Assembly (NCBI GenBank): GCA_020721965.1
Contig: DYLS01000024.1
Span: 108-48,307 of the forward strand
DNA length: 48,200 bases
Reading direction: 5' to 3'
From: Blastopirellula marina
GTDB lineage: Bacteria > Planctomycetota > Planctomycetia > Pirellulales > Thermoguttaceae
In this document: piece after piece, positions 12,956 to 44,855 of the stretch
How the letters are laid out: the number at the start of each line of letters is the position of its first letter
Position numbering within the stretch: the first letter of the stretch is position 1
Translations under genes and position numbers: made by a program
Notes under the pieces: generated by a model
The model's input: the letters and a program-made list of their open reading frames with translations, nothing else
Database searches by the model: none
Told to the model about the DNA's origin: nothing

Positions 12956-12999
12956 CTCTATCCACCTGCGGACTGAAAGGTTGCGTTCCAACGGCCCGT

Positions 13000-13140
13000 T
13001 AGTGCTATATTGCTGGGTTGTTCTCAACATCTTGTGGTGATGGGAAACAACGCATTGCAACGTATGGTGGGCGCGTCATGCAGGCACACGGACTTTGCGC
13101 TGTAGGATCAGGAAACCTTTGCACTGTAGGGTTAGGAAAC
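13000..13140 (+). repeat. Dispersed TIR element family 1, copy A
   Basis: TAGTGCTATATTGCTGGGTTGTTCTCAACATCTTGTGGTGATGGGA...GGACTTTGCGCTGTAGGAT. The right end is duplicated as a 24-bp tandem (13093-13116, 13117-13140). Confidence 0.85.
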
Positions 13141-14345: not shown

Positions 14346-14443
14346 TAGTGCTACAGGGCTGGGTTGTTCTCAACATCTTGTGGTGATGGGATGCAACGTA
14401 GGGTGGGGGCATCATGCAGGCACACGGACTTTGCGCTGCAGGA
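14346..14443 (+). repeat. Dispersed TIR element family 1, copy B
   Basis: TAGTGCTACAGGGCTGGGTTGTTCTCAACATCTTGTGGTGATGGGA...TCATGCAGGCACACGGACTTTGCGCTGCAGGAT. Shares 34-bp and 27-bp identical blocks with copy A. Confidence 0.87.
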
Positions 14444-26980: not shown

Positions 26981-27216
26981 CGATTTCAGTATCGCACGAG
27001 AATATCAGCCAGGAAACCACCAACGCCCTTAAAATCCTTCAACAAAGGCATCGGATTTCGGATTATGGTTCGGCACAGGCAATTTCGAGCGATGGCGCTG
27101 TGAGAAAAAGGCTGTCCCTGCGGTGCTGCGGAACTCGAAAAGACCGGTTCGTCACAGCGACGCCGAGGCATCTGGCCGGCCATCCTGCAAGTTCTGAAGC
27201 TTCCGGGTAGCCTCGT

Positions 27217-27327
27217 ACTACAGCGCAAAGTCCGCCCGATTGGCTGGATGTGCGCAGCTCGGATTGCGAGGCGGCATTTCCCATCACCACAAGATGTTGA
27301 GCCGAGCAAACAATCTTGCGCTGTAGT
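27217..27327 (-). repeat. Dispersed TIR element family 1, copy C
   Basis: Perfect 12-bp TIRs ACTACAGCGCAA (27217-27228) and TTGCGCTGTAGT (27316-27327). Minus strand contains CTCAACATCTTGTGGTGATGGGAAA, as in copies A and B. Confidence 0.88.
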
Positions 27328-36035: not shown

Positions 36036-36224
36036 AAGACTCTGGACCCTGAAGACTTTGGACCCTGAAGACTCTGGGGACTGAAGACTCTGGAACCTGA
36101 AGACTTTGAGGTTTGAAGCTTCGGAGGCTGAAGCTTCGGGGGCTGAAGCTTCGGGGGCTGAGGCTTGGGGGGTGAAGCTTTGGGGCCAGAAGACTCTGGC
36201 GACTGAAGATTTCAAGGGCTGAAA
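36036..36224. repeat. Minisatellite, ~12 units of 14-16 bp (consensus CTGAAGACTCTGGAC / TGAAGCTTCGGGGGC)
   Basis: gaagactttggaccct|gaagactctggggact|gaagactctggaacct|gaagactttgaggttt|gaagcttcggaggct|gaagcttcgggggct x2|gaggcttggggggt|gaagctttggggcca|gaagactctggcgact|gaagatttcaagggct. Confidence 0.95.
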
Positions 36225-38544: not shown

Positions 38545-38655
38545 GATGCGACAGCGAGATGTTTGCTTCGCTCAACACCGTGTGGTGGTAGGATATATCG
38601 CCTCGCAAGATATGCTGGGCAAGTCGTGGAAGCAGCCAGACTTTGCTTTGTAGGA
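38545..38655 (+). repeat. Dispersed TIR element family 1, copy F (degenerate)
   Basis: TGATGCGACAGCGAGATGTTTGCTTCGCTCAACACCGTGTGGTGGTAGGAT...CAGACTTTGCTTTGTAGGATC. Confidence 0.7.
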
Positions 38656-39756: not shown

Positions 39757-39803
39757 TTTCCCCTGGACTCGTCGCAGCTCGACGGAATCTCCATATAGCA
39801 TTT

Positions 39804-39943
39804 CAGCGTAAAGTCCGCTTGACTGCATGTCATGTGCAGCTCAGATTGCAAGGCGCAGTGTCGCATCGACAATACCAGCAAGATAGCAACAACAACAAGA
39901 TCGAGATATTGAACGAGGCAAACAACCTTGCGCTGTAGCACTA
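39804..39943 (-). repeat. Dispersed TIR element family 1, copy D
   Basis: Minus strand: TAGTGCTACAGCGCAAGGTTGTTTGCCTCGTTCAATATC...TTGCAATCTGAGCTGCACATGACATGCAGTCAAGCGGACTTTACGCTG. Confidence 0.8.
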
Positions 39944-41089: not shown

Positions 41090-43162
41090 TCAGTCGTCTT
41101 CCGGCCCGGCCGTGTCGGACGGGAATGACTCTTCCTCCGAGAACGGCATCTGCTCGGGCCGCCGCGTGGCGGGTGGGAGTATCTGAGTCGGCTCCGCGCC
41201 GAAGACATCGATCGCCTTCCGCACCAGGGGATTCTGCACGATGTCGAATAGCTGCTGATGTCCGACTGGGCCGGAAGTTCGCTTGGCCTGAGGCGAGGAT
41301 GTGGGCGCTGGCACGAATTCTACGGCAACATGGGTGCCAGCGGATCGCCGTAGCGCTGCCTCGATCCGTGTCCTATTTTCTGGACGATTGCAAAAATTCA
41401 GGCTGAACTCTGCTTGCGGCCGAAAGAATACCGTCAGGCGTCCACCCTCCGCCCACGCAACGCGATCGAATTGACGCGCTTGTTCTGCCAGCATCACCGG
41501 GAGCGATTCCACCGCGTTGGTCCACAACTCCAGCGGATTTTCCGCCGGTCCCTGCCTGACGATAGGTTGCGGGGTCTGCGGGATATGCGGGGCCTCTGCG
41601 ATTCCGGCGGTCTCGGCCGACGGTTGCCCTCCTTCGACCGTTTTATGAGATGCGGGGGGGGCGGGGCGTGAAGGTCGGGAGGTGTCACCAGCAGCCGGTA
41701 CAAACGTCGGACGGGTTTCCTTCGACAAGGCCGCCGCCAAGCTCGACTCATTTTCCGAGCGAGGCGCTGACGCTATCTTGGGCAACGACGGCTCAACGCG
41801 GGAAAGGACGCCGCTCAAGCTCTCGCCGTGGCGATGTCCAGCAGACGCGGGCGAGGTACTGGTGGGGGGGGCGATGCTTCGGCCGGGGCGGGATCGCAGC
41901 TCCGCCAATATCTGCTGCAAATCCTCCATCTCATCCAGCATTGCCAACCGCACCAAGGCCAATTCGGCGATGATTCGATCGTGCGTGACTAACCGCATTC
42001 GTGCGAGGGCGTGGTCCAAGACTTGCATGGACGCCATGAGACGATGGAGGCCCGTCGAGCGTCCGAGTTCGCTGGCGCGGTCCAATTGCCCCGCCCCCAG
42101 CGTCAATAGCACATCCGCCTTGCAGCCGAGAGTGGCCACCAGGCAATCGCGGTAGAAGGCCAGCAATTGTTCCATCAAGATGGCCGCGTCCGCGCCGGCA
42201 TCCAGCAGGCGGTGCAACTCGGTCAGCGCCGCGGCGGCATCGCGTGCCATGAGGGAGGCCGCCATCGCCTCTATCGCGTCTGTGCCGGCCAAGCCCAGCA
42301 AGCGGTTGGCGTCGTCCAATGTCAGCCGGTCCGCGGCGAAAGAGAGGAGCTGCTCGAGAAGCGACTGGGCATCGCGCATGGATCCCGCGGCTTTGCGGGC
42401 GACCAGGTCGAGCACGCCGTCCTCGACCGCCACGTGTTCGCTTTCGGCGATCGTGCGCAGACGATCGACAATCTCCGTGGTACGAATTCCGGCAAAATCA
42501 AATCGCTGGCACCGGGAAAGAATGGTGATCGGAACCTTGTTTGGCTCCGTGGTGCAGAAAATGAATTTCACGTGCTCCGGAGGCTCTTCCAACGTCTTGA
42601 GCAGGGCATTGAATGCCTCCTTCGTCAGCATGTGGACTTCGTCGATGATGTAGATTTTGTATCGGCTGCGGCTGGGACGCACGGCGATACTTTGACGCAA
42701 CTGGCGAATCTCCTCGATCCCCCGATTGCTCGCGCCATCGATTTCCAGGACATCGACATCTTCTCCGTTGGAGATGCTCATGCATATCTCGCAACGGTTG
42801 CATGGTTCTGGCGCGGGACCCTGCTGGCAGTTGAGGGCTTTGGCGAAGATGCGAGCGGTGGAGGTTTTCCCCACGCCGCGGGCACCCGTGAAGAGATAGG
42901 CGTGACCCACGCGACCGTGCCGGATCGCGTTCGAGAGGGCCGAGGCTACGTGTTCTTGCCCCACGAGATCGCCGAACGTTTGCGGCCGGTAACGTCGGGC
43001 GACAACCAGATAATGGGATGCGGCGGCGGACTGCGCACCCTCCTTCTCGGCCGGTGCGGCTATGACTTCCTGATCGGGTTTGGCTTTGGTTCGCCTAGGC
43101 CCCATGAAGTACTTCGCCCGGAGGTCCTGCTTGCGTCTTTTACCGGCATGGCCTTCCGGCAA
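41090..43162 (-). CDS. dnaX: DNA polymerase III subunit gamma/tau
   Basis: RYRPQTFGDLVGQEHVASALSNAIRHGRVGHAYLFTGARGVGKTSTARIFAKALNC, CNRCEICMSI zinc site, YIIDEVHMLTKEAFNALLKTLEEPPEHVKFI. Confidence 0.96.
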   Translation of the reverse strand: MPEGHAGKRRKQDLRAKYFMGPRRTKAKPDQEVIAAPAEKEGAQSAAASHYLVVARRYRPQTFGDLVGQEHVASALSNAIRHGRVGHAYLFTGARGVGKTSTARIFAKALNCQQGPAPEPCNRCEICMSISNGEDVDVLEIDGASNRGIEEIRQLRQSIAVRPSRSRYKIYIIDEVHMLTKEAFNALLKTLEEPPEHVKFIFCTTEPNKVPITILSRCQRFDFAGIRTTEIVDRLRTIAESEHVAVEDGVLDLVARKAAGSMRDAQSLLEQLLSFAADRLTLDDANRLLGLAGTDAIEAMAASLMARDAAAALTELHRLLDAGADAAILMEQLLAFYRDCLVATLGCKADVLLTLGAGQLDRASELGRSTGLHRLMASMQVLDHALARMRLVTHDRIIAELALVRLAMLDEMEDLQQILAELRSRPGRSIAPPTSTSPASAGHRHGESLSGVLSRVEPSLPKIASAPRSENESSLAAALSKETRPTFVPAAGDTSRPSRPAPPASHKTVEGGQPSAETAGIAEAPHIPQTPQPIVRQGPAENPLELWTNAVESLPVMLAEQARQFDRVAWAEGGRLTVFFRPQAEFSLNFCNRPENRTRIEAALRRSAGTHVAVEFVPAPTSSPQAKRTSGPVGHQQLFDIVQNPLVRKAIDVFGAEPTQILPPATRRPEQMPFSEEESFPSDTAGPEDD

Positions 43163-43252
43163 AGGGTCCGGTTGGCCATGTCGGGCTGCCGAGGATTGTG
43201 AGCCGTCCGCTGAGTCACGTCACCTTTTGCACCCGTCCGTGCGCACCTGCCC

Positions 43253-43366
43253 GCGACGCCTGGCGAGGAGCCCGCCGCACATGAAGATGACCGCTTATGG
43301 CTGCTGACTTTCGTCCCTGACCAGGTTCGCGGCTCCCCATTGCGGGGACCCCTCGCCGGACGCCGC
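43253..43366 (-). ncRNA. ffs: Bacterial signal recognition particle RNA (SRP/4.5S-type)
   Basis: Minus strand gcgaacctGGTCAGGGACGAAAGTCAGCAGCCataagcggtcatc carries the SRP Alu-less apical motif (GGUCAGG...GNAA-type tetraloop...AGCAGCC). Flanks close into a helix: GCGGCGTCCGGCGAGG with CCTCGCCAGGCGTCGC. Confidence 0.9.
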
Positions 43367-43475
43367 ACAGGCAGATCGCTCTACACCCGACAGCATCGGT
43401 ATTCCCCTGTTTTACGCGATCCGATATAGGCCGTCAAATGGGGTCGTGTTTTTCGAGGTGGCCCTAGCAACGGAT

Positions 43476-43640
43476 TAGCGCCACAACGCAAGTTTGTGCG
43501 ATTGGTTCAACACATCGCGGTGATGGGACATGACGCCTTGCAATCCATGCCGTGCCTCTCATGCAGTGGGACGGCCTTTGCGCTGCAGGACCTTTGGACT
43601 AAAGGGCCTTTGCGCTGTAGGGCTTTTGCGCTGTAGGATA
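43476..43640 (+). repeat. Dispersed TIR element family 1, copy E, with right end amplified four-fold
   Basis: TAGCGCCACAACGCAAGTTTGTGC...TTCAACACATCGCGGTGATGGGA, then four 16-bp units cctttgcgctgcagga/cctttggactaaaggg/cctttgcgctgtaggg/cttttgcgctgtagga (43575-43638). Confidence 0.85.
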
Positions 43641-43736
43641 GTTGGGACGCGAGTCGGTGCTTGTGGGCTATGATTGAGTATGGCTTTGCGGACGGCCTGT
43701 GAATGGCAGAGTAACCTTGCGTGAGGACGCCAGAAA

Positions 43737-44855
43737 ATGCCACGTGTGATTGGCTGCGTTGTTGGTGCTCGCCCGAACTTCATGAAGATGGCCCCGCTGC
43801 TGCGGGCATTGGAGCGGTACAAAGACCTCCGGACGGTGCTGATTCACACCGGCCAGCACTACGATGCGCAGCTCAGCGACGTCTTTTTCCAAGACCTGGA
43901 GATGCGCCGTCCGGATGTTCACCTTGGCGTCGGCTCGGGAACGCATGGGCAGCAGACCGCCCGCGTGCTGGAGGCGATCGAGGCGGAATTGAGCCGAGCC
44001 ATCGCGGAGCATCGCCCCTTGGACCGGCTCCTCGTGGTAGGCGATGTCAACTCCACCATGGCCGCCGCGCTGGCAGCCGCCAAGTTGCAGATCCCGGTAG
44101 CCCATGTCGAGGCCGGGCTGCGGAGTTTCGACCGCACGATGCCTGAGGAAGTCAATCGCCTGGTTACCGATGTCATCGCCGATCAACTTTTCGTTTCGGA
44201 GCCATCCGGCATGGAGAATCTCCGCCGCGAAGGAAAGCCGCCAGAACAAATGTTCCTTGTGGGGAACGTGATGATCGATACGTTGCGCTCGCTGTTGCCC
44301 AAGGTTCAACCTCGGGAGACGTTGAGGCGGTTGGGCATGGATTTCGAGGAGTACGGCGTGGTTACAGTGCATCGGCCGTCCAATGTCGACCGGGCGGAAA
44401 CACTGGGGCCTTTGTTGAAAGTCCTGGCGGAGGTAGGGAACGCGATCCCGATCTTGTTCCCCATTCATCCGCGGACCCAGGCCAGGATTCGGGAATTCGG
44501 CCTGGAAGGGCTGCTGCGGTATGAGGGCGAGCGAAAACGTGGGCTGATCCCACTTCCGCCGCTGGGATATCGCGATTTTCTGGCCCTGACCTCGTCGGCC
44601 AAGGTCGTCATCACCGATTCGGGAGGCCTGCAAGAGGAGAGCACCGCCCTGGGAATCCCCTGCTTGACGCTCCGGCCCAACACGGAACGTCCCATCACGG
44701 TCGAAGAGGGGACAAGTACCTTGGTCGGCAGCGACGCGGATCGTCTCCGCTCCCTTCTGGAGGATGTCTTGCGAGGACGATACAAAGAAGGGCGCTGCCC
44801 CGAGCTTTGGGACGGGCACGCGGCGGAGCGAATAGCGGCCATCCTCTTGGGCTGA
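43737..44855 (+). CDS. wecB: UDP-N-acetylglucosamine 2-epimerase (non-hydrolyzing)
   Basis: GARPNFMKMAPLLRAL, HTGQHYDAQLSDVFF, HVEAGLRSFDRTMPEEVNRLVTD, VTVHRPSNVD, TDSGGLQEESTALGIPCLTLRPNTERPITVEEGT. Confidence 0.96.
   Translation: MPRVIGCVVGARPNFMKMAPLLRALERYKDLRTVLIHTGQHYDAQLSDVFFQDLEMRRPDVHLGVGSGTHGQQTARVLEAIEAELSRAIAEHRPLDRLLVVGDVNSTMAAALAAAKLQIPVAHVEAGLRSFDRTMPEEVNRLVTDVIADQLFVSEPSGMENLRREGKPPEQMFLVGNVMIDTLRSLLPKVQPRETLRRLGMDFEEYGVVTVHRPSNVDRAETLGPLLKVLAEVGNAIPILFPIHPRTQARIREFGLEGLLRYEGERKRGLIPLPPLGYRDFLALTSSAKVVITDSGGLQEESTALGIPCLTLRPNTERPITVEEGTSTLVGSDADRLRSLLEDVLRGRYKEGRCPELWDGHAAERIAAILLG

Follow-up and report, generated by a model that had tools for sequence, protein, structure and literature searches.

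Decayed copies of a MITE family in an uncultured planctomycete and the short tandem duplications at their right ends

The tandem arrays that end copies A and E of a short interspersed repeat, called here family 1, are very probably explained by the decay of MITE relics and by ordinary short tandem duplication in place. Family 1 adds a new family to a known kind of element, and its mutational history is ordinary. It was found in a 4.95-Mb draft genome (380 contigs) of an uncultured planctomycete; the wecB protein encoded next to copy E has its best relatives in Thermogutta, Thermoguttaceae, and other Pirellulales metagenome genomes, at 69–70% identity. Both copies lie in the window, i.e., the whole stretch of 48,200 nucleotides that was analysed.

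The consensus of family 1, a 115-position profile, is 115 bp long and has inverted ends AGTACTACAGCGCA...TTTGCGCTGTAGTAC, with terminal inverted repeats of ca. 12 bp; judged by the element length alone, its coding capacity is at most 38 codons. The terminal motif described in the initial annotation is the right terminal inverted repeat of this repeated element. A profile search found 103 copies in 789 kb, 52 on the plus and 51 on the minus strand, and none in a reversed control. The 789 kb were sampled as stretches picked on contigs known to hold copies, and scaling up suggests roughly 600 copies in the whole genome, a number which may be somewhat high because of this choice of stretches.

The 4-mers flanking a copy on the left and on the right are identical in 14 of 72 copies, where shuffling gives 2.6 and never more than 10 in 10,000 rounds. 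Their positions 1 and 4 match across the two sides 46 and 43 times, respectively, compared with 28 and 26 in shuffles, while positions 2–3 are mostly TA. The matching 4-mers are target-site duplications of 4 bp, NTAN and mostly YTAR; a duplication of TA only, as in IS630-like elements, is out, since the outer positions, 1 and 4, agree across the two sides as well. With its inverted ends, constant 4-bp duplication, small size, dispersal, and many copies, family 1 is a MITE. The window holds the following copies apart from copy E:
13003..13107, plus strand, MITE copy A, of a shorter subfamily (nhmmer), with the left target-site duplication TTAG at 12999–13002
14349..14443, plus strand, MITE copy B, of the same subfamily as A, with target-site duplication CTAG/TTAG and a right end that is not duplicated
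27216..27327, minus strand, MITE copy with single ends (nhmmer)
38548..38655, plus strand, MITE copy with single ends (nhmmer)
39803..39942, minus strand, MITE copy with an internal insertion and a degenerate right end (nhmmer)
The shorter subfamily (beginning GTTGTTCTCAACATCTTGTGGTGATGGGAAACAACGCATTGCAACG...) is shorter by about 8 bp close to the left end and comprises, besides copies A and B (13001–13107 and 14347–14443 when aligned as members of it), those at L079:7626-7519 and L073:1441-1546, and others. It is apparently younger, its copies being visibly more alike and their target duplications mostly intact.

The copies of family 1 are decaying relics, with a mean pairwise identity of 69%. 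No covariation across the inverted repeats was detected (818 paired cells versus 809 expected); the paired ends have changed independently, so nothing is maintaining the inverted repeats. As the MITE itself has no Rfam match either, a functional RNA or a selected hairpin was rejected. Family 1 had no match in 39 relatives, including three congeners, and its core was absent from a public genome collection scanned for the exact core 24-mer.

Family 1 shares with the bacterial MITEs NEMIS/Correia, RUP, and Nezha the short non-coding sequence, inverted ends, target duplication, high copy number, and mostly intergenic location, but its copies are strongly decayed, a search of relatives did not turn it up, and no partner IS was found. 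The RAYT (HUH) mechanism is not expected to generate a target duplication. GTAG-tagged REPs and REPINs with RAYT, reported from planctomycetes (PMC3733652), are also intergenic with inverted ends, and the right end of family 1 happens to contain GTAG; however, they are palindromes of 20–40 bp, unlike family 1 with its long inverted ends, and the 4-bp target duplications of the latter led to the rejection of a REPIN or GTAG REP identity.

The target site resembles those known from the IS5 family: the target-site duplication motif of IS5 is YTAR (PMC10359306), and IS711 duplicates TA within YTAR (PMC2266754). The 4-bp YTAR duplication is common to IS5 and family 1, a link by target site alone, as no IS5-family transposase with matching inverted repeats was found in the draft genome. 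The transposase search covered three Pfam families: PF01609 gave three weak or broken matches, the best-scoring one interrupted by a stop and another containing four stops, with only 3-mismatch resemblances to the family 1 ends nearby, while PF13546 and PF13586 gave no matches. A survey of solo ends at 20 loci did not reveal an autonomous partner; one candidate pair of ends, L076:7501-9675, was discarded, the longest frame enclosed by it reading like a Ser/Thr kinase.

Copy E and its surroundings comprise the following features:
41090..43162, minus strand, dnaX-like open reading frame for DNA polymerase III gamma/tau (Pfam PF13177, PF12169, PF22608)
43259..43357, minus strand, gene for the bacterial small SRP RNA, flanked by dnaX and copy E (Rfam RF00169, 66 bits, cut-off 40)
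43475..43478, plus strand, left target-site duplication TTAG of copy E, read from the sequence and in keeping with the 4-bp NTAN duplication known for the family
43479..43590, plus strand, body of MITE copy E, tandem unit 1 included (nhmmer match 43478–43590/43591)
43575..43638, plus strand, right terminal inverted repeat as a tandem array of four 16-bp units (TRF and unit comparison)
43639..43641, plus strand, TAG after unit 4, probably a remnant of the right target-site duplication TTAG
43737..44855, plus strand, wecB-like UDP-GlcNAc 2-epimerase open reading frame (Epimerase_2 PF02350, 1.8e-97)

The array of copy E is reported by TRF at 43575–43638 with period 16, 4.0 copies, 77% matches, and a score of 72. 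Arrays scoring at least 72 number 40 in 440 kb of real sequence and none in 440 kb of a block-shuffled control; as this score is never reached in the control, the array is not a product of chance. The initial annotation gave the motif CCTTTGCGCTGTAGGG as four consecutive 16-bp units, and both the coordinates and the period hold, but an exact match to the motif is confined to unit 3. In order, the four units read CCTTTGCGCTGCAGGA, CCTTTGGACTAAAGGG, CCTTTGCGCTGTAGGG, and CTTTTGCGCTGTAGGA. Units 1, 3, and 4 agree pairwise in 14 of 16 positions, and unit 2 (CCTTTGGACTAAAGGG) agrees with the others in 10–12 of 16, a likeness still above that expected by chance (p about 1e-4 by letter shuffling). 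The left inverted repeat of copy E is degenerate (CGCCACAACGC).

Units 1–3 carry copy E's own CCTTT variant in place of the ACTTT that is the norm of the family, which indicates that the array arose in place after the insertion. Nested or repeated insertions into the same end, which could also have left four units, have precedents in MITE copies that adjoin elsewhere (e.g., L073:1441-1647 and L066:10666-10900), but the sequence between the units of copy E contains no target duplication of the NTAN type and no interior or left-end sequence, the 16-bp period is constant, and units 1–3 share the private first base of copy E, all of which makes this origin highly implausible. Even less credit can be given to an assembly artefact, for which the draft state of this short-read metagenome bin with its 380 contigs might speak: the units differ by 2–6 bases and thus cannot stem from the wrong joining of an identical repeat, comparable arrays are spread through long contigs, and the relatives contain them at varied rates. 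The divergence of the units suggests that the array is probably old, and gives no sign of present length variation.

At the right end of copy A the terminus is duplicated as a 24-bp unit, as initially annotated, the two quoted units agreeing in 21 of 24 positions:
13093..13140, plus strand, right end of copy A, duplicated in tandem with a 24-bp unit (TRF and unit comparison)
TRF reports this array at 13093–13140 with period 24, 2.0 copies, 87% matches, and a score of 75. Each unit consists of the terminal inverted repeat, the target duplication (TCAG in one unit, TTAG in the other), and 5 bp of flank, GAAAC. Since the unit spans the target duplication and 5 bp of the flank, this duplication arose after the insertion. 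Copies A and E belong to different subfamilies and have units of different length, that of A including its own flank; the view that they were amplified independently is upheld.

Duplication of the terminus is also found in other genomic copies: 7 of 89 intact right ends are followed by another terminal motif at a distance of no more than 80 bp (1 of 89 with a reversed-motif control), and 4 of 88 intact left ends have one upstream (2 with the reversed motif). The duplications detected by TRF affect right ends, left ends, and interiors of family 1 copies, with periods of 13–25 bp, as in these examples:
L095:2306-2421, copy C196, right-end duplication with a period near 16
L091:785-973, copy with a right-end duplication of period 24
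L072:19253-19362, copy with a left-end duplication of period 20, in 3.2 copies
L071:11909-12050, copy with two duplications, an internal one of 16 bp and a left-end one of 15 bp
In all, 15 arrays are touched by the 103 copies; for random non-coding segments of equal length the figure is 11.2 ± 3.4, and a count of 15 was reached in 85 of 500 random sets. With left ends and interiors duplicated as well and no excess over non-coding DNA, a special amplification of the right terminus is not borne out, and the element, its right end included, is not shown to be a hotspot.

The numbers for the two ends constitute a counterpoint to in-place duplication as the explanation, the right ends (7/89) standing somewhat above the left ends (4/88) and the reversed control (1/89); there may be a mild preference of duplication for right ends. 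That the searches made yielded no autonomous partner is a further point on this side. One reading, which we regard as very unlikely, makes the right terminus a mild hotspot, where a transposase or a replication-blocking hairpin of the inverted repeats repeatedly duplicates the terminal repeat; if true, it would place variable numbers of transposase-binding sites beside genes. A little less likely still is that the repeats were made by the transposase or at insertion, through aberrant end processing or one-ended transposition, the terminus being a true hotspot. The excess of right ends over the reversed motif and the 16-bp period shared by copy E and C196, another counterpoint, would fit such an origin, as opposed to the duplicated left ends and interiors, the lack of enrichment over non-coding DNA, the host sequence within the copy A unit, the differing unit lengths (16, 18, 23, and 24 bp), and the absence of target duplications between the copy E units. 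Were the terminal duplications transposase-made, they would be an easy way for binding sites to become clustered near genes.

Short tandem arrays occur in the sampled genome at a density of 20.8 per 100 kb (789 kb sampled) versus 2.5 in the finished congener G002, the values for other relatives being about 4 to 38 per 100 kb in small samples. The periods of non-coding arrays are mostly 11–25 bp. Periods divisible by 3 are found in 61 of 103 coding arrays and in 23 of 61 non-coding ones, a bias expected of random duplication followed by the removal of frame-breaking events. Longer diverged arrays unrelated to the MITE are present in the window at 1–253 and 36036–36192 (18-bp and 15/16-bp units). 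The genome also contains a second interspersed repeat, ca. 105 bp in size and beginning with ACTGGACTTTTGCAAATTGGGTTCACAAGC, with 37 matches in the 789 kb and none in the window (L064:18823-18930, L093:6118-6222, and about 35 more places); it sometimes adjoins or interrupts the MITE, e.g., at L067:7510.

Copy E is flanked by dnaX and the SRP RNA gene, both on the minus strand, on one side and by wecB on the plus strand on the other. The distance to wecB given in the initial annotation, about 100 bp, is accurate, with 98 bp between the array end at 43638 and the wecB ATG at 43737. The SRP RNA gene on the other side of copy E (43259–43357, minus strand) was absent from that annotation. The wecB locus of a congener has different upstream neighbours, so that it offers no empty-site counterpart of the copy E locus.

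This position, between the divergent wecB and SRP RNA gene/dnaX and 98 bp from the wecB ATG, raises the possibility that the terminal repeats have been selected as binding sites or a hairpin regulating wecB or the SRP RNA gene, as a phase-variable or regulatory array. A precedent is offered by BrickBuilt, a minisatellite-bearing MITE of Porphyromonas gingivalis with promoter activity (PMC4596501). BrickBuilt and MITE464/PgRS of that species are MITEs with 23- and 41-bp arrays near genes; the BrickBuilt segments contain promoter elements, and the inverted repeats of these MITEs are like those of IS5-family elements (PMC4596501). They resemble copy E in joining a MITE with a short tandem array near genes, but their array is a regular interior part of most copies and varies in number between strains (PMC4596501), while the arrays of family 1 occur sporadically, vary in unit and position, and seem to have arisen separately in single copies. 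Identity with a minisatellite MITE of the BrickBuilt type was rejected, only 7 of 89 right ends having an extra terminal motif, with differing periods. As for regulation, a scan of 43160–43760, with the sigma-70 consensus as the only promoter model, found no sigma-70-like promoter and no terminator-like site, the units have diverged, and family 1 shows no covariation, so we consider a selected regulatory array very unlikely. The effect on wecB through promoter or 5'UTR sequence that had been proposed for the amplification found no support and is speculation.

The history that best accommodates the decayed copies and their duplications starts with a non-autonomous DNA transposon of ca. 115 bp, with ends TACTACAGCGC...GCGCTGTAGTA, which would have entered NTAN/YTAR sites and duplicated 4 bp there, presumably by the action of a DDE-type transposase. 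Long ago, it would have spread in the lineage to an estimated several hundred copies, now probably decaying without constraint. After insertion, single copies, like the rest of the genome, would have gained short tandem duplications, mostly of 13–25 bp, most probably by replication slippage or illegitimate recombination, and the right end would have been included by chance in the stretch duplicated in copies A and E. On this history the array of copy E is, we infer, neutral. A repeat that had been unexplained is now classed as a MITE with a 4-bp target duplication of the YTAR type, and the apparent amplification of its end becomes part of a genome-wide tendency to short tandem duplication, so that no special mechanism is needed for what might have seemed a regulatory array.
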